Part shown: piece after piece, positions 102 to 47,530 of the stretch
How positions within the stretch are numbered: position 1 is the stretch's first letter
Layout: each line of letters opens with the position of its first letter
Assembly (NCBI GenBank): GCA_902196205.1
Contig: CABIKM010000004.1
Coordinates: 1-50,238, forward strand
Source: Candidatus Methylomirabilis lanthanidiphila
GTDB taxonomy: Bacteria > Methylomirabilota > Methylomirabilia > Methylomirabilales > Methylomirabilaceae
Direction of reading: 5' to 3'
Length of the DNA: 50,238 bases
The notes under the pieces: model-generated
What the model was told of the DNA's origin: nothing
The model's database searches: none
Seen by the model: only the letters and a program-made list of their open reading frames with translations
Program-made: the position numbers and the translations under genes

Positions 102-521
102 GTGGACGAGAAGGGCAAAATCTCGAAGAAGGCGGTGGCGGCTCGCCTAAAGGAGATCGGTCACGACGCCGAAGATGCGGAGGAGCGTAATGCGCTTGAA
201 AACTATGCCGCCCTGCTCGACAAGCAAGCTAGTGCCAAAAGCCGGTTGAGGACTGCGCAGGACGCGCTCGAGGCTAAGGTCGCCGCGAAATACGGTAAGC
301 TCACCGAGACCGAGATCAAGACCCTCGTCGTAGAAGACAAATGGCTGGCGCAGCTTGCCGCCGATGTGCAGAGCGAGTTGGACCGCGTCTCCCAGGCGCT
401 CACCGACCGTATCCGCCAGCTCGCCGACCGCTATGCCACCCCGCTGCCGCAGCTCACCGAAGACGTGAGGATCCTCGCCGCCCGCGTGGACGAGCACCTG
501 AAGAAGATGGGGGCGGTATGA
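102..521 (+). pseudogene. hsdM: hsdM remnant: C-terminal end of a type I restriction N6-adenine methyltransferase
   Basis: The 139 residues match only the C-terminal helical tail of HsdM, the methyltransferase subunit of type I restriction-modification systems. Recognisable family features are the DEKGKISK start, the KTLVVEDKW stretch and the final RYATPLPQLTEDV...EHLKKMG. The SAM-binding and NPPF catalytic motifs are absent because the rest of the gene is missing. The frame is open back to about 87, where it meets a stop at 84, just inside the probable insertion sequence. The GTG at 102 is therefore a chance start. The stop overlaps the hsdS start (ATGA), so translation coupling with hsdS would have existed in the intact operon. 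Confidence 0.85.
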
Positions 522-1834
522 AACTGAGTCCGGGGTACAAGCAGACCGAGGTGGGGGTGATTCCGGAGGACTGGGACGCAGGCTGCCTTGGTGATAAATC
601 CACAAAGGTCGGAAGCGGCATGACCCCAACGGGGGGCGAGAAAGTTTACAAGCAAGAGGGGCGACCCTTTCTCAGAAGTCAAAATGTCGGTTGGGGCACA
701 CTTCTCATGGAGGATATTGCCTTCATTGACGAAGCTACCCACGCCACATTCACGGCCACGGAGGTCACGCTTGACGACGTTCTTCTGAACATCACTGGCG
801 CATCAATCGGCCGTAGTGCTGTTGCCGATGCTCGCGTCGAACGAGGCAACGTGAATCAGCATGTTTGCATCATTCGTACCGACCAGGACCTGCTATATCC
901 GCGATTTCTAAACTACTTCCTGCTCTCAAAAGCTGGGCAGCGACAGATTGACAGCTTTCAGGCTGGCGGTAACCGGCAGGGATTGAACTTTGGACAGATT
1001 CGGTCATTTCGTCTCCCAATTCCACCCCTCCCCGAACAACGCGCCATCGCGGCTGCGCTGGGGGATGTGGATGCGCTGCTGGGCGCGCTGGCCCACCTCA
1101 TCGCCAAGAAGCGCGACCTCAAGCAGGCCGCCATGCAGCAGCTTCTCACCGGCCAGACGCGCCTGCCGGGCTTCGGTAAAGGGGTCACTTCCCAGAGAAC
1201 AAGCGTTGGTCGACTTCCGAAGGACTGGACTCTAACGCCCCTGAAGTCAATCAGCACTATGAATGGACGAATAGGCTGGCAGGGTTTGAAGCAGGAGGAG
1301 TTTACTTCTGTTGAGAGCGACCCGTTCCTGATTACGGGGATGAACTTTGAAGATGGCGAGATTAGGTGGGGCGAGGTTTATCACATTCCCGAGAAACGGT
1401 ATGAGGAAGCGAAGCCCATCCAACTACGCGGTGGTGACATTCTCATGACCAAGGATGGCACCATCGGGAAGCTCTTGTTTGTTGAGTCTATTCCCTTCCC
1501 GGGCAAAGCGTCGCTCAATAGCCACTTGCTGGTGTTTCCGCCTCTGAAGGACTCTTATGTTCCCACATTTCTCTTCTACCACTTGAGTTCTAAGAGATTT
1601 GCGGACTACGTTGATCTGAACAAGTCGGGCACGACTTTCTTTGGAATCACTCAGGAAGCTGTCGGGAAGTATCAAGCGTGCCTGCCGTCGATTGATGAGC
1701 AAACCGCCATCGCCGCCGTGCTCTCCGACATGGACGCGGAGATCGCAGCGCTGGAGCAGCGGGCGGCCAAGACTCGCGCCCTCAAGCAGGGGATGATGCA
1801 GGAGCTGCTCACTGGGAGGACCAGACTTGTATGA
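518..1834 (+). CDS. hsdS: Type I restriction-modification specificity subunit HsdS
   Basis: HsdS recognises the bipartite DNA target for the type I methyltransferase/restriction complex. The 438-residue protein has the usual two target recognition domains, roughly residues 1-165 and 225-385. Each is followed by a conserved helical spacer: PLPEQRAIAAALGDVDALL near 168-215 and IDEQTAIAAVLSDMDAEI near 390-438. Both spacers end in a QxLLTGxTRL motif (QQLLTGQTRL and QELLTGRTRL). The N-terminus GYKQTEVGVIPEDW is typical of TRD1. The start at 518 overlaps the hsdM stop (ATGA). The open frame continues upstream to 341, but that part is a shadow of hsdM. The protein looks intact although its methyltransferase partner is truncated. 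Confidence 0.93.
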   Translation: MKLSPGYKQTEVGVIPEDWDAGCLGDKSTKVGSGMTPTGGEKVYKQEGRPFLRSQNVGWGTLLMEDIAFIDEATHATFTATEVTLDDVLLNITGASIGRSAVADARVERGNVNQHVCIIRTDQDLLYPRFLNYFLLSKAGQRQIDSFQAGGNRQGLNFGQIRSFRLPIPPLPEQRAIAAALGDVDALLGALAHLIAKKRDLKQAAMQQLLTGQTRLPGFGKGVTSQRTSVGRLPKDWTLTPLKSISTMNGRIGWQGLKQEEFTSVESDPFLITGMNFEDGEIRWGEVYHIPEKRYEEAKPIQLRGGDILMTKDGTIGKLLFVESIPFPGKASLNSHLLVFPPLKDSYVPTFLFYHLSSKRFADYVDLNKSGTTFFGITQEAVGKYQACLPSIDEQTAIAAVLSDMDAEIAALEQRAAKTRALKQGMMQELLTGRTRLV

Positions 1835-3774
1835 AGATTTCAACGATCCTCGACCACATTGACAGCGGCCACATAGCGTTGCCGGAGTTTCAGCGCGGCT
1901 ATGTCTGGAATAGCGACCAAGTTCGGAAGCTGTTCACTTTGCTATTCCTTCGCCGTCCGGTGGGCGGCCTGCTCGTTTGGGCCACCGAATCCCGAACAGC
2001 CGCGCATCGAGGTGATGGGCCGCTCGCCGGCGGCGTGGTGAAGCTCCTGCTCGACGGTCAGCAACGTATGACCTCACTCTACGGCGTGGTGCGTGGCAGG
2101 CCGCCCATGTTCTTCGACGGAAACGCAAAGGCGTTCACCGGGTTGCGGTTCCATCTCGATACGCAAGCCTTCGAGTTTTATCAGCCGGTCAAGATGCAGG
2201 ATGACCCACTCTGGATTGATGTCACGGAGTTGATGAAGAAAGGAGCCGCCGGGCTGGGTGAGTTCGTGACCCGCCTGACTGCGCAGCCTGCTCTGGCAAC
2301 GAAAGTGGGCGAGTATGTCGGGCGTCTCAGCCGCCTGCTCGGCGTCGCTGATGTGGACCTTTACGTCGAGGAAGTTACCGGTGCGGACAAGACGCTGGAT
2401 GTGGTCGTGGACATCTTCAACCAAGTGAACGGCGGAGGCACCAAGCTCTCGAAGGGCGACCTGGCGTTGGCCAAGATTTGCGTCGACTGGCCACAGGCAC
2501 GCGACACGATGAAGGCCAAGCTCAAGGAGTGGGCCAGGGCGGATTACCACTTCAACCTCGACTGGCTGCTGCGCTCGGTGAACACCGTCCTCACCGGCGA
2601 GGCCAAATTCCAGTTCTTGCATGAGAAAACCGCGGAGGAGATTCGGGATGGTCTGGAACGGGCTACCAGGCACATTGATACAAGCCTGAACCTCATCAGC
2701 GGTCGGCTCGGACTCGACCACGACCAGGTATTCTTTGGTCGCTTTGGTGTGCCCGTGATGGTGCGTTACCTCGACTACCGTAGCGGGCCGATGGGTGAGA
2801 AGGAGCGGGACAAGCTGCTTTTCTGGTTCGTGCAGGCGGGGATGTGGGGCCGGTTCTCAGGCTCAACCGAATCGTTCATCGATCAGGACCTTGCCGCTTT
2901 GGAAGGGGAGGATGGCGGGCTCGACAAGCTCCTGGAACAGTTGCGGCTGTGGCACGGTGGCCTTCGGGTCGAGCCGGGCCATTTTACCGGCTGGAGTCTC
3001 GGTGCACGGTTCTATCCCGTACTCTACCTGCTAACGCGCATGGGGTCCGCCCGGGACTGGGGCACCGGTCTACCACTGAAGGCTTCCCTGCTTGGCAGAA
3101 TGAGCCGGTTGGAGGTGCATCACATCTTCCCGAAGGCGCAGCTCTATCAACGCAAGTTCAAGCGCCCAGAGGTGAACGCGCTCGCGAATTTCTGCTTCCT
3201 CACCAAAGACACCAACCTCGATATCAATGATCGCCTACCGGAGGAGTACTTCCCGGAGATAGCGCGAGCCCACCCCCATGCGCTCGCTTCGCAGTGGATT
3301 CCCGCTGATCCGAACCTGTGGAAGATCGAGAACTTCCGCGAGTTTCTTGAAGCCCGGAAGGTACTGCTGGCGGCAGAGGTCAACCGGCGGATGAAGGACC
3401 TTCTTCACGGGAGTGACGAATGGCTGGCTGGGGCGGCACCCCAAGCTCCTGCGGCCGTCGTGGTCGGAGGCGGCATCACGAGCGAAGCCGAGGAGGAACA
3501 GCTTGAAGCCCTCAATCACTGGATGGAAGAGAACCGCTTGCCGCGTGGCGTGCTGGCTTACGACCTCGCCGACCCCGCAACCGGCGAGCAGAAAGCCGTC
3601 TTCGACCTCGCTTGGCCCAGCGGCATTCAGGAGGAACTGAGCCAGCCGGTCGCGGTGTTGTTGAACGAAGGCAACGAAACCCTGGCCATCGCGAGCCAAG
3701 CCGGATTTCGGTTCTTTACGTCGGTCGACGATTTTCAGCGTTACGTCAGGGATGACATTCTTGTGGAGACATAA
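1831..3774 (+). CDS. DUF262 / HNH nuclease of the GmrSD type inside the type I restriction operon
   Basis: This 647-residue protein has an N-terminal DUF262 (GmrS/ParB-like NTPase) domain with LPEFQRGYVW near residue 17 and the signature LLLDGQQRMTSLYG at 73-86. A DUF1524-like His-Me nuclease core follows, with VHHIFPKAQ near 429 and NFCFLTKDTNLDIN near 453. A C-terminal extension of about 100 residues (about 545-647) is unfamiliar to me. GmrSD proteins are type IV enzymes that cleave modified phage DNA. Here the gene starts inside the hsdS stop (ATGA) and ends two bases before hsdR, so it belongs to the same transcript. A role as an extra restriction activity or toxin-like effector of the system is inference. 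Confidence 0.85.
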   Translation: MKISTILDHIDSGHIALPEFQRGYVWNSDQVRKLFTLLFLRRPVGGLLVWATESRTAAHRGDGPLAGGVVKLLLDGQQRMTSLYGVVRGRPPMFFDGNAKAFTGLRFHLDTQAFEFYQPVKMQDDPLWIDVTELMKKGAAGLGEFVTRLTAQPALATKVGEYVGRLSRLLGVADVDLYVEEVTGADKTLDVVVDIFNQVNGGGTKLSKGDLALAKICVDWPQARDTMKAKLKEWARADYHFNLDWLLRSVNTVLTGEAKFQFLHEKTAEEIRDGLERATRHIDTSLNLISGRLGLDHDQVFFGRFGVPVMVRYLDYRSGPMGEKERDKLLFWFVQAGMWGRFSGSTESFIDQDLAALEGEDGGLDKLLEQLRLWHGGLRVEPGHFTGWSLGARFYPVLYLLTRMGSARDWGTGLPLKASLLGRMSRLEVHHIFPKAQLYQRKFKRPEVNALANFCFLTKDTNLDINDRLPEEYFPEIARAHPHALASQWIPADPNLWKIENFREFLEARKVLLAAEVNRRMKDLLHGSDEWLAGAAPQAPAAVVVGGGITSEAEEEQLEALNHWMEENRLPRGVLAYDLADPATGEQKAVFDLAWPSGIQEELSQPVAVLLNEGNETLAIASQAGFRFFTSVDDFQRYVRDDILVET

Positions 3775-3776
3775 CC

Positions 3777-6700
3777 ATGAGCACCGTCGGCCAGATCGAG
3801 AAGAAGACTCAGGCACGCGTGGTGAGGCTGTTCCGAGAGCAGCTCGGCTACGACTATCTCGGCGACTGGACCGAGCGCGAGGGCAACCGCAACATCGAAG
3901 AGGAGCTGCTGCGAGCCTTCCTGCGAGACAAGCAGGGCTACGACGAGGCGCTCATCACGCGGGCACTTCACGTCTTCGGCAAGGCGGCGGGCGACTCCAG
4001 CAAGAGTCTCTACGACCGTAACCGCGCCGTGTACGACATGCTGCGCTACCCCGTGAAGGTAAAGCCCGGTGCGGGCGACAATACTGAGGACATTTGGCTC
4101 GTCGACTGGAAGCACTCGGAGCGGAACCACTTCGCCATCGCAGAGGAAGTGACCGTCCCGGGCAGCAATGCCAAGGCCCACACCAAGCGCCCGGACGTAG
4201 TGCTCTACGTCAACGGCATTGCGCTCGGTGTGCTGGAGCTGAAACGCTCGACGATTTCCGTAGCCGAGGGCATCCGCCAGAACCTCGACAACCAGAAGAA
4301 GGTCTTCATCGAGCACTTCTTCTCGACGGTGCAGTGGGTGATGGCTGGCAACGACACCGAGGGCCTGCGCTACGGCACCATCCAGACGCCGGAGAAGTAC
4401 TACCTCACCTGGAAGGAGGATGGACCCGAAGGCAACCCGCTGGATCGCGCGCTTCTCCAGCTCTGCGCCAAGACCCGCTTTCTGGAGCTGATTCATGACT
4501 TCATCGTCTTCGACGCCGGGATCAAGAAGCTCTGTCGGGCTCACCAGTACTTCGGCGTGCGGGCCGCGCACAGCCATGTAATGCGTCGCGAGGGCGGGAT
4601 CATCTGGCACACGCAGGGTAGCGGAAAGAGTCTCGTCATGGTGTGGCTGACCAAATGGATTCGCGAGCATGTCACCGATGCCCGCGTGCTCATCATCACG
4701 GACCGTACCGAGCTTGACGAGCAGATCGAGGGGGTCTTCAAGGGCGTCAACGAAGACATCTACCGCACCAAGAGCGGCGCGGACCTAATCGCCACCCTGA
4801 ACGCGACGTCGCCCTGGCTGGTGTGCTCGCTCGTCCACAAATTCAGTGGGAAGGGGGAAGGCGAGGAGGTCGGCGACATCCCCGGCTACATCGCAGAATT
4901 GAAGAAGGCGCTGCCGCCCGGTTTCGCCGCCAAGGGCAACCTCTTCGTCTTCGTCGACGAGTGTCACCGCACCCAATCCGGTGAGCTGCACAAGGCGATG
5001 ACGGCCATCCTGCCGAGAGCCGTGTTCATCGGCTTCACCGGCACGCCGCTGCTGAAGGCCGACAAGCAGAAGAGCATTGAGGTTTTCGGCGGTTACATCC
5101 ACACCTACAGGTTCGACGAGGCGGTGAAGGACAAGGTGGTGCTCGACTTGCGCTATGAGGCGCGGGACATCGATCAGCGTATCACCTCGCAGGACAAGAT
5201 CGACCAGTGGTTCGAGGCCAAGACTCGAGGTCTGACCGACTTGGCCAAAGCGCAGCTCAAGCAGCGGTGGGGCACGATGCAGAAGGTGCTCTCCAGCCAG
5301 TCGCGACTGGAGCAGATCGGCGCCGACATCTTGATGGACATGGAGACTCGCGACCGGCTGAAGAGCGGCCGGGGCAATGCCATACTGGTCTCCGGGAGCA
5401 TCTACCAAGCGTGTAGGTTCTACGAGTTATTGGACAAGACCGACTTCAGGGGCAAGTGCGCGATCGTCACCTCTTACAGACCGTCACCCGCTGACATCAA
5501 GGGCGAGGAGAGCGGCGAGGGTCTGACGGAGCGGCTGCGACAATACGACATTTACAAGCAGATGCTGGCCGACTGGTTCAACGAGCCGGCGGAGACCGCG
5601 GTAAGCAGGGTTGAAGAGTTCGAGAAGGCTGTAAAGAAGAAGTTCATCAAAGAGCCGGGTCAGATGAAGCTGCTCATCGTGGTCGATAAGCTGCTGACGG
5701 GCTTCGATGCGCCGCCTGCAACTCACCTGTACATTGATAAGCAGATGCGCGATCACGGTCTCTTCCAGGCCATCTGCCGCGTGAACCGGCTGGACGGTGG
5801 CGACAAGGAGTACGGATACATCATCGACTACAAGGACCTGTTCCAGAGCCTCGAGGGAGCGGTGCACGACTACACCTCAGGGGCACTGGACGGCTACGAC
5901 AAGGAGGATGTGGCGGGACTGCTCGAGGACCGGCTGGGCAAGGCACGGGAGCGACTGGAGGAGGTTCGGGAGGCAGTGAAGGCCCTCTGTGAGCCGGTGG
6001 AAGTGCCAAAGGACTCGGCGGCCTACCTGCGCTACTTCTGCGCCAAGGATTCCGGCCACGCCGAACAGCTCAAGGCCAACGAACCGAACCGACTGGCGCT
6101 CTACAAACATGTTGCGGCGTTCGTTCGAGCGTTTGCCAACCTCGCCAACGAGTTGGCAGACGCCGGATACTCTCCCACTGATATCGATGTCCTGAAGGCA
6201 GAGGTCGACCACTACGAGAAAGTCCGCACCGAGGTCAAGCTGGCCAGCGGCGACTACATCGATCTCAAGATGTACGAGCCGGCCATGCGGCACCTGATCG
6301 ACGCCTACATCCGGGCCGAAGAGAGCGAGAAGGTGTCCGCCTTCGATGACATGTCGCTCGTCCAGCTTATCGTTGAACGAGGGGCGGCTGCGGTCGATAC
6401 TCTGCCGGATGGAATCAGGAAGAACGAGGAGGCCGTGGCCGAGGCCATCGAGAACAACGTCCGCAAGCTGATCATCGACGAACAGCCGATCAATCCGAAG
6501 TACTATGAAAAGATGTCGGAGTTGCTGGACGCCTTGATCGAACAACGCCGCAAGGAGGCGATGGACTACCAGAAGTATCTGCGCAAGATCGTAGAATTGA
6601 CAAGACAGGTGACCAACCCCGAAGCGAGTGGCGCGTATCCGGTAACGACGAATACCCCTGGCAAGCGGGCGTTGTATGATAACTTCGACAAGGACGAGGC

Positions 6701-6962
6701 GCTGGCGCTGGCGGTCCATGCCGCGGTACGCGCCAACCGGCAGGACGACTGGCGGAGTAACCCGTTCAAGGTCAAGAAGGTGAGGAATGCGATCCGGGAC
6801 GCGCTGGCGTCGGACGGGGCGCGAGTGATAGGCGGCCGTGACGCTGCGAAGCCCACCGTTGTGCAGGCACCGCCGGATGTCTATGTTACGAAGTCGTCGG
6901 AGTCCCCCGAAGAGCGGGTCGAGAGAATCCTCGCTTTGGTGAAGAATCAGGATGAGTACTGA
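3777..6962 (+). CDS. hsdR: Type I restriction enzyme endonuclease subunit HsdR
   Basis: HsdR is the translocating nuclease of the type I complex. The 1061-residue protein carries an N-terminal PD-(D/E)XK nuclease domain, with KRPDVVLYVNG near 138-148 and the catalytic ELK near 154-156. A superfamily 2 helicase motor follows, with Walker A TQGSGKS near 276-282, DECH near 394-397 and TGTPL near 421. The helical C-terminal domain is complete. It begins two bases after the DUF262 gene, and its last codons overlap the start of the metallopeptidase gene by 11 bases. It cannot restrict without HsdM, and only a fragment of hsdM remains next to it, so activity depends on a methyltransferase encoded elsewhere. 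Confidence 0.95.
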   Translation: MSTVGQIEKKTQARVVRLFREQLGYDYLGDWTEREGNRNIEEELLRAFLRDKQGYDEALITRALHVFGKAAGDSSKSLYDRNRAVYDMLRYPVKVKPGAGDNTEDIWLVDWKHSERNHFAIAEEVTVPGSNAKAHTKRPDVVLYVNGIALGVLELKRSTISVAEGIRQNLDNQKKVFIEHFFSTVQWVMAGNDTEGLRYGTIQTPEKYYLTWKEDGPEGNPLDRALLQLCAKTRFLELIHDFIVFDAGIKKLCRAHQYFGVRAAHSHVMRREGGIIWHTQGSGKSLVMVWLTKWIREHVTDARVLIITDRTELDEQIEGVFKGVNEDIYRTKSGADLIATLNATSPWLVCSLVHKFSGKGEGEEVGDIPGYIAELKKALPPGFAAKGNLFVFVDECHRTQSGELHKAMTAILPRAVFIGFTGTPLLKADKQKSIEVFGGYIHTYRFDEAVKDKVVLDLRYEARDIDQRITSQDKIDQWFEAKTRGLTDLAKAQLKQRWGTMQKVLSSQSRLEQIGADILMDMETRDRLKSGRGNAILVSGSIYQACRFYELLDKTDFRGKCAIVTSYRPSPADIKGEESGEGLTERLRQYDIYKQMLADWFNEPAETAVSRVEEFEKAVKKKFIKEPGQMKLLIVVDKLLTGFDAPPATHLYIDKQMRDHGLFQAICRVNRLDGGDKEYGYIIDYKDLFQSLEGAVHDYTSGALDGYDKEDVAGLLEDRLGKARERLEEVREAVKALCEPVEVPKDSAAYLRYFCAKDSGHAEQLKANEPNRLALYKHVAAFVRAFANLANELADAGYSPTDIDVLKAEVDHYEKVRTEVKLASGDYIDLKMYEPAMRHLIDAYIRAEESEKVSAFDDMSLVQLIVERGAAAVDTLPDGIRKNEEAVAEAIENNVRKLIIDEQPINPKYYEKMSELLDALIEQRRKEAMDYQKYLRKIVELTRQVTNPEASGAYPVTTNTPGKRALYDNFDKDEALALAVHAAVRANRQDDWRSNPFKVKKVRNAIRDALASDGARVIGGRDAAKPTVVQAPPDVYVTKSSESPEERVERILALVKNQDEY

Positions 6963-32466: not shown

Positions 32467-33888
32467 TTACGATGCGACATTGTTCCCATCCTGAGAGTCA
32501 TCGGGGAGAAGACGAAGCGAGTCGGCGGCGGACTGAGGCGCAGAGGCACGATAGGCGTAGCTCAGGGTTCGTCCCATCACCGCCGCGTAGACCAGGCCTC
32601 CCAGCGCGAGTATCAGGGCGCCAGGTTGAGCGATCGCCGCTTGGGCAGTGATCAGGCCGGCGGCCAGCGTCAGGACGCCGATATTCAACGAGACGAACAC
32701 AAACGGCCGCCAGCGTAACAGGGAAAACCCGGTGATCGGCAGCGTCGACCAGCCTCTGCGCTCACGCACCCCGACGACGATACCAGGAAAGAGCTTAAAG
32801 GACATCCCGACGATGAGGTTCGTCACCCACCCGAGCAACCCCAGCACCCCGTACGCTCCCGCAATCCTGTTGCCGAGGGCGCTGTCCGGATCAATCCACA
32901 GTAACGAGAATCCGAGCCCAACGGCGAGCAGCAAAGAGACCATGCCGGCCATCGCGTGTCGCATTGTCCAGTCGATCGGTGTCCGCCGGTTGCGCACAAG
33001 CGTAGAGAGCACCCCGACATAGATCAACAGGGCCAACATGATCACCACGCTCCAGACGGAGACTCCTGGAATCCAACCCAGGAGCGACATGGCCAAGCCG
33101 GCGACACCGACGGCGAGGCCATAGAGTTGCCAGACCGCCAGACGCGGCAGCGTCAGCTCCGACAGGAGAAACGCCGGCGCCATTCGGTAGGAGATTGAAC
33201 AGATGGTCAGGCTCACCCATCCGAGCGCCGCCAGATGCGCATGACTGGCCAGATTGGTGATGACATTGCCGGGAAGAAACCCGCGAGACTTGTCAAACGC
33301 AAGGAGAAAACCGAGCGTAGCCGCGAGCAATAGAAATACGATCGACATGCACATGCCGGTTTCCGGCGCGCTCCGGTGCCAGGCGGGACCAAGGCAGTAC
33401 AGCATATTCATCGCGAAGAACACCACGCTGAGCACAATGACGGCCGCCGCCATCCAGGTGGGCGGCCACACTCCAATCAGCATGTGCGTCATGAGACCTG
33501 TCGCGCTGAAGATGTAGAGCCCGAACTGCCAGCGCGCCAGTCTCGGGAAGCGCAAGGGTCGTTTGGTCATAGCCGGCACCAGCCGATACATCACCCCCAT
33601 GATCGCAGAGCTGATCCATCCAAGCGTAAAGGTGTGGGTCGTCGCCAGGATCCGCGGATGATAGAAAAACTCCATCAGATCACCTATCACCCACGGAACC
33701 GCGGCAACACCAAGGCCGAAGAGGGCGACGGCAGAGATAAAGAAATGGATCGGCAGCCGTGCCGTTCGGATCAGTTCGCGGGACGAAGCGCTCTGCGCGG
33801 TCGGTTCGGCCTCAGGCTCCTGCGTCACGCGCCCGCTTGTCTCCGGATCAAGATCGATTCGCAACCGTTCAGATCGGTGCAGGCTCAT
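32467..33888 (-). CDS. Multi-span membrane protein of the heme-copper oxidase subunit I (CcoN) / NnrS-like type
   Basis: This 473-residue protein has about 12 hydrophobic segments. Two blocks have the same shape, TTHTFTLGW...YRLVPA near 70-95 and SHAHLAALGW...YRMAPA near 215-240. This histidine-LGW pattern is seen in short cbb3-oxidase subunit I-like and NnrS-like heme proteins. The full set of CuB histidines of a true oxidase is not obvious, so I do not call it an oxidase. It starts 20 bases after the stop of the VKOR/NnrS fusion gene (ATG 33888, GGGA upstream), and both are likely made together. A role in nitric oxide, oxygen or quinone handling is inference. Confidence 0.6.
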   Translation of the reverse strand: MSLHRSERLRIDLDPETSGRVTQEPEAEPTAQSASSRELIRTARLPIHFFISAVALFGLGVAAVPWVIGDLMEFFYHPRILATTHTFTLGWISSAIMGVMYRLVPAMTKRPLRFPRLARWQFGLYIFSATGLMTHMLIGVWPPTWMAAAVIVLSVVFFAMNMLYCLGPAWHRSAPETGMCMSIVFLLLAATLGFLLAFDKSRGFLPGNVITNLASHAHLAALGWVSLTICSISYRMAPAFLLSELTLPRLAVWQLYGLAVGVAGLAMSLLGWIPGVSVWSVVIMLALLIYVGVLSTLVRNRRTPIDWTMRHAMAGMVSLLLAVGLGFSLLWIDPDSALGNRIAGAYGVLGLLGWVTNLIVGMSFKLFPGIVVGVRERRGWSTLPITGFSLLRWRPFVFVSLNIGVLTLAAGLITAQAAIAQPGALILALGGLVYAAVMGRTLSYAYRASAPQSAADSLRLLPDDSQDGNNVAS

Positions 33889-33908: not shown

Positions 33909-35567
33909 TCAACCGGCTTTCCCCGCACTATCCATCACCAAGACGGTCCGTTTCCCCACTACACCGGATACGGCCATGTTCCCCAGAAAAAGCAGTACGG
34001 CGACCACATTCAGCAGGCCGCCTCCCAGCCTTCCCGGCCACCACGCCGTGACATCCCCCGCCACTCGCAGCACAAGCGACAGGTGCAGTAAGATAAGATG
34101 GCTGTAGAACGCCGGACGAAACGGCAACGCGATTTCCAGCACAGATGGAAAGATGATCGGGGCGTGCCCGATAATCATCGAGAACACAAAACCGACAAAT
34201 ATGGCGTGCAGCGTCGCATCATAGCCATCCGGTCCGCTATGCTGGTGGATCGCATGTATGCTCGCATCGTGGTGCAATCCGAACGCCACCCCTCCAAAAC
34301 CTAACGTCAGCAGTCCCGCCACCGCCAGCCACACATAACCTGAGAGGAGGCTGAGCGCCACGAATCGGTGCAATCCGGTTTTCTGCACCGAGTATCGGGC
34401 CATATCGTGGCGCAGCAGCCACACGCTCAGCGACACCAGGCCCACTCCGCTTACGCGCGCCCCAATGTCGAATGTCAGCCCGACCGGAATAAGTCCAGCC
34501 GCAAAAAGCGCCGCCGCAGCCAGAAACGATAGCCGATGTCGCTGCGCGAGCGGGAGAAAGCGGCTCAGTTCCAATCGTTCTCCCGCAATCGTCAGGATCA
34601 GGAACGCGGCCCACCAGCTTACCACACCGGTGATCGACCACCCGCTCAGCCAAAGGCTATTGCCGACCAGCCACGCAAGCGCCCCGAGCCCCATCGTGAC
34701 CGTAAATAGGGCGGGTTGTTCGCGAATGAGATAGGCGAACGTGATCACCAACATCAGGCTGCCAAGGGTCATCAGCGCGGGGCCCACGATACCGGGGATT
34801 CCGACTATCAGGATAACCGCGCCTATCCCGGTGGCCAGCGGCCCGAAAGCCGGCCACCACTTCCTGATCGCGACGGCTCGCTCCAGCGCGATGAGCGTTC
34901 CCAGGAATCCCGACACCATCAGGGGACCGTGTACGGCGGGCAAAGTCGCAGGAACGGCCGACCAGTCCCATCCCAGGCGGTAGAGTCCGCCCAAGAGCGC
35001 CGCGAGCAGCGCGAACATGCCTGACGCCATCAGCGGAAATCTGAACGCGCGTCGCAACGCCCCAGGCGGGCTTTGTGATGCTCGCTCGGAAATTGTCTGT
35101 TCCGGCTGTTTCGCCGCTCGCGTCGTCAGAATCGCACCAAGGCTCAGGATAAAGAGCGACGTCATCGTCAGGGCCGAAAGAACACACCACACACAGATCG
35201 ACTCGATGACCGCAACCTGCAGATAGATCAGCCACGCCGATACCGCGGCGCCGATTCCACCGACCGCAGCGATGATCTCCAGCGGACGTCGACTGTCGAG
35301 GATGACCGCTGCAACCGAGAGGACAAGCAACACCAGATACGCGCCGACACCGAACACCGCAATGGGGATTCCCCAGACCTTAGAGTATTCCCCCTGGTTG
35401 ACGACGTCGCATCCTCCGGTAGGACAGAAGCCAGACGTCTCCGCGAGATGCCCCCAGAGCAAGTAGCCCGAGTCGGCCAGACCGAGCACGGCGAGTACAG
35501 GGAGCGCCATCAGCCACCGCCACGTGCGGCGGCCGGCGGCGGCCTCAGTAAACCTCAATGGGAACAT
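33909..35567 (-). CDS. VKOR domain fused to an NnrS-like membrane domain
   Basis: The 552-residue protein starts with a vitamin K epoxide reductase domain (about 15-150). It has the loop cysteine pair C48 and C53 in CPTGGCD, the YSKVWGIPIAVFG block with its serine, and the CVWC redox motif at 125-128. After a linker at about 150-165 come some ten further membrane spans with LPAVHGPLMVSGFLGTLIALE near 205 and a histidine-rich stretch HHDASIHAIHQHS from 432, followed by LHAIFVGFVFSMIIGHAPI. That half resembles NnrS-type heme-copper membrane proteins. VKOR normally passes electrons from periplasmic dithiols to quinone. The fusion suggests thiol/quinone redox coupled to a heme site. ATG 35567 overlaps the radical SAM gene by 23 bases; ATG 35585 is an alternative. 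Confidence 0.75.
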   Translation of the reverse strand: MFPLRFTEAAAGRRTWRWLMALPVLAVLGLADSGYLLWGHLAETSGFCPTGGCDVVNQGEYSKVWGIPIAVFGVGAYLVLLVLSVAAVILDSRRPLEIIAAVGGIGAAVSAWLIYLQVAVIESICVWCVLSALTMTSLFILSLGAILTTRAAKQPEQTISERASQSPPGALRRAFRFPLMASGMFALLAALLGGLYRLGWDWSAVPATLPAVHGPLMVSGFLGTLIALERAVAIRKWWPAFGPLATGIGAVILIVGIPGIVGPALMTLGSLMLVITFAYLIREQPALFTVTMGLGALAWLVGNSLWLSGWSITGVVSWWAAFLILTIAGERLELSRFLPLAQRHRLSFLAAAALFAAGLIPVGLTFDIGARVSGVGLVSLSVWLLRHDMARYSVQKTGLHRFVALSLLSGYVWLAVAGLLTLGFGGVAFGLHHDASIHAIHQHSGPDGYDATLHAIFVGFVFSMIIGHAPIIFPSVLEIALPFRPAFYSHLILLHLSLVLRVAGDVTAWWPGRLGGGLLNVVAVLLFLGNMAVSGVVGKRTVLVMDSAGKAG

Positions 35568-36345
35568 GGGTGCGCTTTTGCGCATACTCCGCAATCGACT
35601 CGAGCACCTCCCTGGCAACCGGCTTCACACCGGAGTCGGCCGGTACGCGGTCGAGCGTATAGATGTGGACGCCGCGCGGATGGATTTCGGCAACTCGATC
35701 GGACCACTCCTGGATTGCGAGCGGCGCCGTATTGGCCGCTCTGCCCCACACAAACATCGTTTGCAATATCACCCCGTCAAGGTTCGCCAGCCCCTGAAGC
35801 ATTGTCATGAAGTCCCACCCTGGAGCCGGCAGATTGATCTGACGCGCGAGGCTCTCCGTTCCGGCATCCAACTTCATCAGTTTGAGATCGACCCCCCGCA
35901 GGGCGGCGCGCACCTCCGCGCGATGGACGGTCGAGCTGTTCGAAAGGATGGCCAGTTTGGCGTTCGGCGCGTAGATGTCCCGCAGATCGGAGACGGTCTT
36001 GACGATCGCCTGCAACTCCGGATGGAGCGTCGGCTCGCCGTTGCCGGAGAAGGTAATAACGTCGATTGCGACGCGCTCGCGGGACAGTTCTTGCAGCCGC
36101 GCCTCTAAGGCCTCCGCTACCTGCTTACCAGAGGGCAGATCCGCAAGCGAGTCGATGCCCGGCCGGATCGGCTGCGTCGTCCACCCGCACTGGCAGTAGC
36201 GGCAGTTGAACGAACAGTATTTGACGCCCGTACCGAGCAGATTGACGCCGAGCGACCGGCCGAGCCGTCGGGAAGACAGCGGCCCGTAGATCAGATCCTC
36301 TTTGACCAGGCGGCGTCGGCGAGTATCCAGCGTAATCGAGTTCAG
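35545..36345 (-). CDS. Radical SAM protein (COG0731-like), without a common start codon
   Basis: Reading from 36345, the product has 266 residues: DLIYGPLSSRRLGRSLGVN, the radical SAM cluster motif CSFNCRYC (C44, C48, C51), SGNGEPTLHPEL and ILSNSSTVH. The SRRLG start and C-x3-C-x2-C-Q layout match radical SAM proteins of unknown substrate. The frame is closed by TAA at 36354-36352, and no ATG, GTG or TTG occurs before the cysteine motif. Only CTG codons (36345 first, overlapping the hpt stop) could start it. A TTG at 36015 would lose the whole catalytic motif. It is probably translated by coupling to hpt from CTG, unless a sequence error hides the start. Confidence 0.78.
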   Translation of the reverse strand: MNSITLDTRRRRLVKEDLIYGPLSSRRLGRSLGVNLLGTGVKYCSFNCRYCQCGWTTQPIRPGIDSLADLPSGKQVAEALEARLQELSRERVAIDVITFSGNGEPTLHPELQAIVKTVSDLRDIYAPNAKLAILSNSSTVHRAEVRAALRGVDLKLMKLDAGTESLARQINLPAPGWDFMTMLQGLANLDGVILQTMFVWGRAANTAPLAIQEWSDRVAEIHPRGVHIYTLDRVPADSGVKPVAREVLESIAEYAQKRTHVPIEVY

Positions 36346-43853: not shown

Positions 43854-44558
43854 TTATTCCCCAAGGTAGGCGCTTCGAATATCACCGTTGGCCAGAAGGT
43901 TTTCCGCGTCATCGCTCAGCACGATCCGACCGACCTCCATCACGTACCCTTTCGCCGCAATCCCCAGCGCCATATGCGCGTTTTGCTCGACCAGCAGAAT
44001 CGTTGTGGATTGGGCATTAATCTCCCGAATCACCTCAAAGATGGTCTCCACCAATTTGGGGGCCAGTCCCAATGAGGGTTCATCCAATAGCAGAAGCCGC
44101 GGGCGCCCCATCAGGGCGCGGCCGATGGCCAGCATCTGCTGTTCCCCTCCGGAAAGCGTCCCGCCCGGTTGGGATCGCCGATCTTTGAGAAGCGGGAACA
44201 GTTCGAAGACCCGATCCAGGTCGTGATGGATCTCGGCGGCGCCAGCGCGGGTATAGGCGCCCATCTCCAAATTTTCCAGGACGGTCAGCGTGGAAAAGAT
44301 CCGCCGCCCCTCCGGGACCTGCGAGATGCCGCGCTTGACGATGGCATGGGTTGGAAGGTACGTCAATTCCTCGCCTTCGAAGCTGATCCGTCCGCTGGTC
44401 GGTCTCAGGATTCCGGAAATCGCCATCAACGTCGACGATTTCCCGGCGCCGTTGGCACCGATCAAGGTGACGATCTGACCCTGCTGCACCTCAAGGCTGA
44501 TACCCTTGAGGGCATGGATGGCGCCGTAATGGAGATGCACCTCGTGCAGGTTAAGCAT
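43854..44558 (-). CDS. livF: Branched-chain amino acid ABC transporter ATP-binding protein LivF
   Basis: LivF is the second ATPase of the Liv importer. The 234-residue protein has Walker A GANGAGKSS, the signature LSGGEQQMLAIGRAL, Walker B LLLLDEPSLGL and the H-loop region LLVEQNAH. The YVMEVGRIVLS ending is typical of LivF. Its start overlaps the end of the livM/G gene by eight bases. Confidence 0.93.
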   Translation of the reverse strand: MLNLHEVHLHYGAIHALKGISLEVQQGQIVTLIGANGAGKSSTLMAISGILRPTSGRISFEGEELTYLPTHAIVKRGISQVPEGRRIFSTLTVLENLEMGAYTRAGAAEIHHDLDRVFELFPLLKDRRSQPGGTLSGGEQQMLAIGRALMGRPRLLLLDEPSLGLAPKLVETIFEVIREINAQSTTILLVEQNAHMALGIAAKGYVMEVGRIVLSDDAENLLANGDIRSAYLGE

Positions 44559-46617
44559 GCAGCGACTCTTTTCCCAGATAAGCGCCGATCACCCTGGAAT
44601 CCGCCTTGATTGCTGCCGGTGTGCCTTCGGCGATCGTGATCCCGTGATCGAGAACCACGATCCGTTCCGAGATGCCCATCACCAGTTTCATATGGTGCTC
44701 AATGAGGAGAACGGTGATGCCGCGGGCGCGAATCGCATAGATCAGGTCCATGAGGGCGTTGGTCTCCTGGGGATTCATTCCGGCCGCCGGCTCATCCAGA
44801 AGCAAGAGGGTCGGATCGCTCGCCATCGCCCTCGCGATCTCAAGCCGCCGCTGGTCGCCATAGGGAAGCTGGCTCGCCCACAGATCACCCTTATCCTCGA
44901 GACCCACGAACTGAAGCAGTTCATACGCCTTTGCCGCCGACCTCTCTTCTTCGGCAATCACGTTTTTCGGTCTGATCACCGCGCCGATCACCCCGGCCCG
45001 CATCCGGCAGTGGCCCCCTACCATCACGTTCTCGATCACCGTCATATCGTGAAACAGCCGGATGTTTTGAAAGGTGCGGCTTATCCCCTTAGCAGCCACG
45101 TGGTGCGGCCTCAGACCGACCAGGTTCTGTCCGCGGTAACGGACCTCTCCGGACGTTGGTGCAAAGAGACCTGTGACGGCATTAAAAAAGGTCGTTTTTC
45201 CGGCCCCGTTGGGTCCGATCAGACTGACAATCTCCCCCGCCTTCACACTGAGGTCGACCATGTCCAGCGCGCGGAGTCCGCCGAAATCCACCGACAGCTT
45301 TCGGGTTTCGAGCAGCATCATGTCCGCGTCGTTCGAGCGCGGTGAGACCGAATCGATCCGCTCTGAGCCCGTCGATCGGGCTATAGACCCGCTTACCGCT
45401 GAGGCGCGCAATACCTCTCTGCGCCACAAGGGGACCGCGCGGCGGCGCGCGGTGAGCAGCCCCTTCGGCCGCATGACCATCATCCCGACCATGGCCGCTC
45501 CAAAGACCAACATACGGTACAGCGCGAATTGCCGCATCATCTCAGGCAGGATCAGCAGCATCGCCGCCCCAAGGATCACTCCCGGCACGCTGCCCATCCC
45601 GCCGAGCACGACCATGCAGAGGACAAGCACCGATTCGAAGAACGTGAAGCTCTCCGGCGAGATGAACGTCATCTTGCTTGCAAAGAAGACGCCCGCGAGT
45701 CCCGCCCACGTTGCGCCAAGCCCGAACGCGAGAAGCTTGGTCTTGACCAGGTCGATGCCCATCGCCTCGGCGGCTACCTCGTCATCGCGCATGGCGGTCC
45801 AGGCTCGGCCGAGACGCGACTGATTCAGTCGACCGACGGCGAAGATGGTCAGCAGAACGACCGCCAGGATCAGGTAGTAGTAGTGAATCGGGTGGGAAAA
45901 GGCAAACCCGAACAGGCTCGGACGCGCGATGCCGATGATCCCGTTGGGCCCGCCCGTCACGCCGTCCCAGTTGTTCAGCACAATCCGGATCATCTCGCCG
46001 AATCCCAGCGTGACAATCGCCAGATAGTCTCCCCGCAGACGCAGGGCCGGGAAACCGAGCAGGACGCCGAGGACAGCCGCCAGAACCGCCCCGAGCGGCA
46101 GGACCTGCCAGAACGACAAGTCGAGCCGGGTTGCGAGCAGGCCGTACGCATAGGCCCCTACCGCATAAAACGCGATGAAGCCGAGATTCAGCAGCCCCGC
46201 CAGGCCCACCACAATGTTGAGCCCGAGCGCCAGCGTCGCATAGATCCCCACCTGGGTCAGCACATCTATATAATACCGGTTCAGACCAAGGGGAATCACC
46301 ACCGCAGCGGCGAGCGCCGGTACGTATAGCAAGCGGCGATCGATCCGCCGGCTCAGACCACGAACTGTGGCCCCGCCGGCCTCCATCAGGCGTTCCGTCC
46401 AGACCGGAGACAGCCGCCGCGATTGAGTTATGAACCACTGCGCCAAGCCGAGCAGCACCACAACGCCGACGACCATGAGTGGACGTTCCAGACCGAAATA
46501 CGGCGCGTCCAGCTCCATCATGAGCGGCAGCGACAGCAGTCCCAGCCACAGACCGGTCAGGACGATTCTCGCCAGCGGGCGGCGATATAATGGAAGGGAA
46601 TGCGATAAGGCTCGCAT
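44551..46617 (-). CDS. Fused Liv permease (LivM) and ATP-binding protein (LivG)
   Basis: One uninterrupted 688-residue frame combines two subunits that are usually separate. Residues 1 to about 395 form the LivM permease with about ten spans and [37 protein letters not shown] and a [11 protein letters not shown] loop. After a basic, serine-rich linker the LivG ATPase starts near 433, with [17 protein letters not shown], a signature-like [19 protein letters not shown] and [13 protein letters not shown]. No ribosome binding site precedes the internal ATG pair at 45321/45318, so a real fusion is likelier than two proteins. ATG 46617 is chosen; GTG 46653 would overlap livH by 26 bases. Confidence 0.88.
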
Positions 46618-46627
46618 GGTTTCTGCG

Positions 46628-47530
46628 CTAGGCGCGTTTTGAGGTATTCGCACCCAACAGCCCGTTAGGACGAAAGATCAGTACAAGGATCAGGATGGCA
46701 AATGCAAACACATCTTTGTACTCACTGGAGATATAGCCCGCCCCCAGACTCTCAATAAGGCCCAACAGGATTCCTCCCAGCATCGCGCCTGGAATGCTGC
46801 CGATCCCCCCGAGCACGGCGGCGGTAAATGCCTTGATGCCGGCGATGTAGCCGATAGAAAAATTGATCAGGCCGTAGTACATCCCAACCATCACGCCGGC
46901 TATTGCCGCGAGCGCCGATCCGATAAGGAAGGTCACGCTGATCACCCGGTTCACATCGATGCCGACCAGCTCGGCCATCTGCTTATCCTGGGCGGTGGCC
47001 CGCATCGCCTTCCCGATCTTTGTCCGGCGCACCAGCAGGTGAAGTCCGATCATCATCAGGACCGAGGTGGCCATAATGAACATCTGGATCGCACTGATCC
47101 TGCCACCCGGCAGGTCGATCCCGCCCTGGATGAACAGCTCAGGGAATCCTTTGTCCCTGGGCCCCTGAGCCAGCATGACGAAATTCTGCAGGAAGATCGA
47201 GACCCCCAAGGCGCTGATGAGGGGCGACAGACGCGGGGCTGTACGCAAGGGTCTGTAGGCCAGCCGCTCAATCGTCATGCCGGTGGCGCCGCAAAAGACG
47301 ATCGCCGCCATCATCATGCACACGAGGGTGACGCCGGAATCCGGGGATGTCAGTTGCAGCGTGGTCAGCAGGCTGAAGGTGATGATGCCGATGTAGGCAC
47401 CCAGCATATAGATTTCGCCGTGGGCAAAGTTGATCAGCTCGATGATCCCATAGACCATCGTATAACCGAGTGCGATCAGCGCATAGACGCTGCCAAGTGT
47501 CAGCCCGTTGACCAACTGTTGAAGCAGCAT
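46628..47530 (-). CDS. livH: Branched-chain amino acid ABC transporter permease LivH
   Basis: LivH is the first membrane subunit of the Liv importer. The 300-residue protein starts LLQQLVNGLTLGSVYALIAL and has GYTMVYGIIELINFAHGEIY, RTKIGKAMRATAQDKQMAEL and the coupling-loop AFTAAVLGGIGSIPGAMLGG. GAGGAG lies very close to the ATG. It is separated from livJ by 71 bases containing a strong stem-loop. Confidence 0.94.
   Translation of the reverse strand: MLLQQLVNGLTLGSVYALIALGYTMVYGIIELINFAHGEIYMLGAYIGIITFSLLTTLQLTSPDSGVTLVCMMMAAIVFCGATGMTIERLAYRPLRTAPRLSPLISALGVSIFLQNFVMLAQGPRDKGFPELFIQGGIDLPGGRISAIQMFIMATSVLMMIGLHLLVRRTKIGKAMRATAQDKQMAELVGIDVNRVISVTFLIGSALAAIAGVMVGMYYGLINFSIGYIAGIKAFTAAVLGGIGSIPGAMLGGILLGLIESLGAGYISSEYKDVFAFAILILVLIFRPNGLLGANTSKRA

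Follow-up and report, generated by a model that had tools for sequence, protein, structure and literature searches.

Candidatus Methylomirabilis lanthanidiphila encodes a VKOR domain and a predicted 12-helix membrane domain on a single polypeptide of 552 amino acids, an architecture that is new and conserved. With somewhat better than even confidence, the protein is best described as a quinone-linked disulfide oxidase of the DsbB type that continues into an NnrS-like, nitric oxide (NO)-associated and probably b-heme domain. The gene lies in the window, the 50,238-nucleotide stretch of contig CABIKM010000004.1 that was analysed, and is arranged as follows:

33909..35567, minus strand: VKOR - NnrS-like fusion gene, 552 amino acids, from ATG at 35567 to TGA at 33909 with no internal stops, starting before the upstream radical SAM gene ends
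35130..35513, minus strand: VKOR domain, residues 19-146, four predicted helices (Pfam PF07884, PDB 4nv6, helix prediction, cysteines)
35426-35424 and 35411-35409, minus strand: codons of C48 and C53
35195-35193 and 35186-35184, minus strand: codons of C125 and C128
35061..35129, minus strand: linker of low conservation (33% identity; dN/dS 0.54), residues 147-169
33933..35060, minus strand: C-terminal 12-helix NnrS-like / NO-reductase-fold-like domain (C-domain), residues 170-545
34931-34929 and 34208-34206, minus strand: codons of H213 and H454, invariant, as is H468, in the C-domain
34224..34274, minus strand: histidine-rich insert HHDASIHAIHQHSGPDG, residues 432-448, from the alignment of fused and stand-alone forms
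32467..33888, minus strand: downstream partner gene P0002, 473 amino acids, weak NnrS and COX1 matches
35545..36339, minus strand: upstream radical SAM gene (PF04055, E=1e-10), start approximate, overlapping the fusion start

The fusion's own locus carries tRNA modification, HPRT and HU genes and no NO cluster. MiaB (recognized by eye) and the radical SAM protein, both Fe-S enzymes, are encoded in the gene run upstream, which might, speculatively, fit a theme of Fe-S protection. Elsewhere in the window are a LivM-LivG type protein of 700 amino acids, in which a branched-chain amino acid permease is fused to its ATPase (44551-46653, minus strand), and, by eye, a type I restriction specificity subunit-like ORF and a large HsdR-like helicase ORF with another large ORF between them (341-6962, plus strand).

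Conservation and origin of the fusion

A survey of genomes for the same architecture, as the earlier note on this DNA had suggested, finds the in-frame fusion in 12 of the 15 Candidatus Methylomirabilis genomes (phylum NC10), which also hold its nearest relatives; one of the 12 (G006) is complete, in a single 2.75-Mb contig. The remaining three (G002, G007 and G012) encode the C-domain alone, with no VKOR. That note had also allowed for a sequencing error joining two separate genes, and the window's genome is a 90-contig assembly, but the identical joint recurs in 12 genomes, the single-contig one among them, and an assembly error, now of negligible probability, is rejected. The in-frame fusion in these genomes, together with the median dN/dS of the VKOR half (0.28) and the C-domain (0.155), as compared to 0.54 for the linker, therefore excludes sequencing error and places both halves under purifying selection.

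The fused C-domains form one clade in the tree (100/100 support), and the fusion arose once. This single origin, along with a fast-evolving linker that is longer in two species and a C-domain that works alone in other lineages, is compatible with a chance join of VKOR to a neighbouring membrane protein, in which the halves would function independently and only their stoichiometry or placement would be fixed. This explanation falls a little short of an even chance, since none of the 12 fusions, at a mean identity of 71-79%, has come apart, no VKOR/DsbB other than the fusion is detectable, and the histidine-rich, predicted periplasmic insert arose in the C-domain of the fused clade only. A pattern-limited scan of 84,980 species saw the fusion only in Methylomirabilota, by which its confinement to NC10 is weakly tested, and a literature search returned no paper combining VKOR with Methylomirabilis.

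The VKOR half and disulfide formation

In a comparison of the protein with Pfam, the VKOR model (PF07884) matched residues 23-142 (E=1.3e-23; 84.1 bits versus a gathering cut-off of 27.5 bits) and the C-terminal half matched nothing. The PDB VKOR-thioredoxin structure 4nv6 aligns with residues 19-141 (E=4e-8). The proposal of an N-terminal VKOR bearing the cysteine pairs C48/C53 and C125-C128 is thereby upheld; these four residues, the loop pair and the CxxC, are the only cysteines of the fusion protein and are invariant among the 10 fused members aligned. A Ser/Thr, Ser62 in bacterial VKOR, is conserved behind the loop cysteines; at the equivalent residue 59 the fusion and most members have Gly, and two of the 10 have Ser, which counts somewhat against the assignment. 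Judged by the Pfam and PDB matches and the cysteine pairs, the N-terminal half very likely functions in quinone-linked disulfide formation, and it would do the job of DsbB by passing electrons from periplasmic DsbA-type thioredoxins via C48/C53 and C125/C128 to quinone.

The fusion is the sole VKOR in each of its 12 genomes in a search of the genus (n=15). DsbB was detected in none of the 15 by a search that was positive in six control genomes, and the three genomes lacking the fusion have neither VKOR nor DsbB detectable by these searches. Proteins with a DsbA domain are found in 13 of the 15, and the re-oxidation of DsbA by DsbB or VKOR is established biology (PMC11208910). With a sole VKOR, no DsbB and DsbA present, these genomes thus appear to have no detectable re-oxidant of the DsbB/VKOR type other than the fusion, and disulfide formation in Candidatus Methylomirabilis gains a single candidate enzyme, tied to NO metabolism by architecture and co-occurrence. 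A possible thiol partner in the window's genome has a SurA-like N-terminus followed by a DsbA domain that bears CPFC (G000:C8:5070-5510; L081:1474-2616, minus strand), and open frames of similar length occur across the genus.

Relatives, fold and histidines of the C-terminal domain

Residues 170-545 are predicted to fold into 12 long helices. The C-half has no Pfam match at E<=1, and so misses the NnrS (PF05940) gathering cut-off of 28 bits, nor has it an NCBIfam match of its own, and a PDB sequence search with the profiles of the C-half and P0002 returned no match. The best of the stand-alone homologues, that of Jiella, aligns collinearly along the length of the NnrS Pfam model, at only 13.4 bits (E=0.05). 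Comparison of the C-domain profile with that of NnrS gives a modest score of 27.9-35.6 depending on column choice, where 60 shuffles with the first column choice gave a mean of 17.9 (sd 3.2, maximum 27.8); the same type of comparison with NorB yields no significant match (P=0.48). AlphaFold, run on seven and six sequences, provides an AF2 model of the C-domain of low confidence (pLDDT 49), and with this model Foldseek ranks NO reductases as the first three of 350,542 chains (probabilities 1.00, 0.98 and 0.99; E 0.08-0.11).

Other NC10 bacteria also have homologues of the C-domain (16 outside the genus, of which three are weak or partial). An Anaerolineales has one too, and so do proteobacterial plasmids, where the annotated copies are named "hypothetical protein". 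On all six annotated plasmids read, the gene sits with NO genes: its neighbours are qNOR, DUF2249, hemerythrin and Rrf2 on C. necator pHG1; NnrS, Rrf2 and hemerythrin in both Paraburkholderia and Caballeronia; NosR, NnrS and flavohemoprotein in Jiella; NnrS in Variovorax; and qNOR, NnrS and Rrf2 in Eleftheria. A metal-sulfur (Fe-S) assembly factor, PF01883 in C. necator, lies at most two genes upstream in five of the six. In NC10 and Chloroflexi, the gene is found near cytochrome oxidase genes or adjoining cupin and COX1-like genes, some of these recognized by eye. The fusion exposes an unnamed membrane protein family of NC10 and of proteobacterial plasmids in NO clusters, left as "hypothetical" by databases. 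A literature search found no paper on the DUF2249/DUF59/NnrS set, and the sole paper with both Methylomirabilis and NnrS concerns another methanotroph.

The downstream partner P0002 stays beside the C-domain gene in the genus whether VKOR is fused or not, and its Rhizobium homologue also lies within a nor-nirK-NnrS cluster. NO reductase and cbb3 oxidase make up the first five fold matches of its low-confidence model, and an off-diagonal BLAST match within the P0002 family hints at an internal repeat. The window's genome encodes a second NnrS-type fusion, of 598 amino acids, comprised of ScdA_N (DUF542, of the Fe-S repair type), an NnrS/COX1-like membrane domain and DUF1858 (G000:C14:53809-54189 region; L056:1171-2964, plus strand), with a close relative in G009 (L091). 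Adjoining it on the same contig is another membrane protein, COX1-like but divergent, with about 580 amino acids (L057:1171-2913, plus strand).

Given the NO-cluster context, the NnrS profile comparison, the fold ranking and the matches of partner P0002, the C-domain is therefore called NnrS-like, with a heme-copper-oxidase fold in which we place good confidence. Of the "NnrS-like" half in the earlier note, a distant relationship stands, supported by the collinear stand-alone match, the neighbourhoods and the fold ranking, whereas membership in the NnrS family, in the absence of a Pfam match, does not, and the C-domain is not filed there.

Three histidines of the C-domain, H213, H454 and H468, never vary across 21 homologues, and H495 hardly does. 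In the profile comparison, H213 (HGPLMVSGF) falls on the WHxHEMxxGF helix of NnrS and H454 (LHAIFVGF) on the HALTVG of its TM10, and a forced NnrS-NorB alignment, itself not significant (P=0.5), matches both positions to the TM2 and TM10 ligands of the low-spin heme b. Structure prediction, also put forward in the earlier note, gave the 12 helices and the first-ranked NO reductases, and heme geometry is not readable from a model of such low pLDDT. Heme-copper oxidases bear a six-histidine signature (PMC3413370), to which only TM2 H213 and TM10 H454 of the C-domain correspond, and helices 6 and 7 hold no conserved histidines in the homologue alignment. The "heme-copper type" assignment consequently survives in its two invariant low-spin-heme positions and fails at the catalytic heme-copper/FeB site. 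From these residues, the C-domain likely carries a b-type heme, probably one, between H213 and H454 and near the periplasmic face, and the C-half may be regarded as a degenerate heme-copper-oxidase/NO-reductase-fold protein of the NnrS kind in the inner membrane.

The two heme-ligand-like histidines and a physiology rich in NO and O2 (PMC3413370) are what would recommend a self-contained thiol:NO/O2 oxidoreductase, in which the C-domain would oxidise the hydroquinone formed by VKOR and pass the electrons on to a terminal acceptor, O2 or NO. Only the two low-spin-heme positions of the signature are present, though, and with the catalytic-site histidines of helices 6 and 7 absent, reduction of O2 or NO by the C-domain seems unlikely; the idea of a catalytic oxidase is demoted to a very improbable one. 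For the earlier suggestion of a heme or copper site that handles NO or O2, this leaves turnover of either gas unlikely.

Between helices 9 and 10, the fused forms alone feature the histidine-rich insert, HHxxxxHxxH, which is absent from all aligned stand-alone forms. By positive-inside reasoning it is predicted to be periplasmic, as are the VKOR cysteines.

Nitric oxide, possible coupling of the halves and known systems

NO is a central intermediate in these methane-eating bacteria, which generate oxygen for themselves out of nitric oxide. All 12 fusion genomes carry NO dismutase (nod) and qNOR, compared to none of the other three. This exact match amounts to one phylogenetic contrast, given the single clade of the fused genomes, and completeness is only about 80% for two of the genomes without the fusion; pmoA occurs in 10 of the 12 and is missing from all three others. 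In the window's genome, two genes are of the nod type and bear the SHN substitution, and a further one is qNOR-like and canonical. The two putative NO dismutase genes are in tandem (G000:C41:7211-12879), and about 9 kb from them the same contig bears a pmoA-type gene. The joining of the only detectable disulfide-forming enzyme to a membrane protein found elsewhere amid NO defence genes suggests, but does not prove, a link of protein folding with NO handling in these intra-aerobic methanotrophs.

NnrS gives NO tolerance by protecting the iron pool (PMC9246220). An NO role for the C-domain is likely, and it would be one of tolerance, through NO binding or sensing and iron or Fe-S protection, rather than catalysis. 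The fusion would then hold the cell's only detectable disulfide-forming enzyme beside an NO-handling domain.

A different role, as a maturation factor, is also to be weighed: the C-domain family and its downstream partner would help to build or insert the metal centres that NO reductase, NO dismutase or cytochrome oxidase require, with VKOR providing the thiol chemistry for copper or heme insertion. C-domain genes do adjoin norB, COX genes or a gene for Fe-S assembly, the fusion and NO dismutase share the same genomes, and the histidine-rich insert could bind metal at the periplasmic side. Yet three Methylomirabilis genomes keep a stand-alone C-domain without NO dismutase or qNOR, and the C-domain has no cysteines, and such a role is judged unlikely.

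Returning to the NnrS-like, NO-associated reading, functional coupling of the halves, between thiol oxidation, quinone and NO, may exist, an inference to which the exact co-occurrence with NO dismutase adds interest. Disulfide formation might be gated by NO or heme, such that the VKOR/quinone relay is controlled by, or trades electrons with, NO or O2 at the C-domain's b-heme. We regard gating as conceivable but rather doubtful; if true, it would tune oxidative protein folding to NO dismutation in intra-aerobic methanotrophs. Any real coupling would tie the pathway of periplasmic oxidative folding physically to NO handling, and we know of no other such link.

The fusion can be set beside four known systems. 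The NnrS family (PF05940) shares with the C-domain a collinear 12-helix organisation, H-x-x-x-M-x-x-G-F in TM2, H-x-x-x-x-G in TM10 and residence in the same NO/denitrification gene clusters, whereas the C-domain has diverged beyond the reach of the Pfam model, does not have the complete WHxHEM motif and bears an invariant GERLEL in place of GGRxxPxFT. NO reductase and heme-copper oxidase subunit I have in common with it the predicted fold ranking and the low-spin-heme histidine positions, but the C-domain is without their catalytic-site histidines and significant sequence similarity. WP_011154151.1 of C. necator pHG1, a hypothetical protein beside DUF59/DUF2249, is a direct homologue of the C-domain (36-45% identity for this class), although proteins of its type have neither VKOR nor the histidine-rich insert. 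A VKOR phylogeny survey mentions Trx-like and N-terminal extensions, and a text search for the words "fusion" and "NC10" finds neither in it (PMC4555120). Bacterial VKOR, as typified by VKOR-thioredoxin (4nv6), shares the catalytic core, both cysteine pairs, the N-terminal position and the expected quinone-linked generation of disulfides, while in the fusion the thioredoxin domain is replaced by a 12-helix membrane domain.
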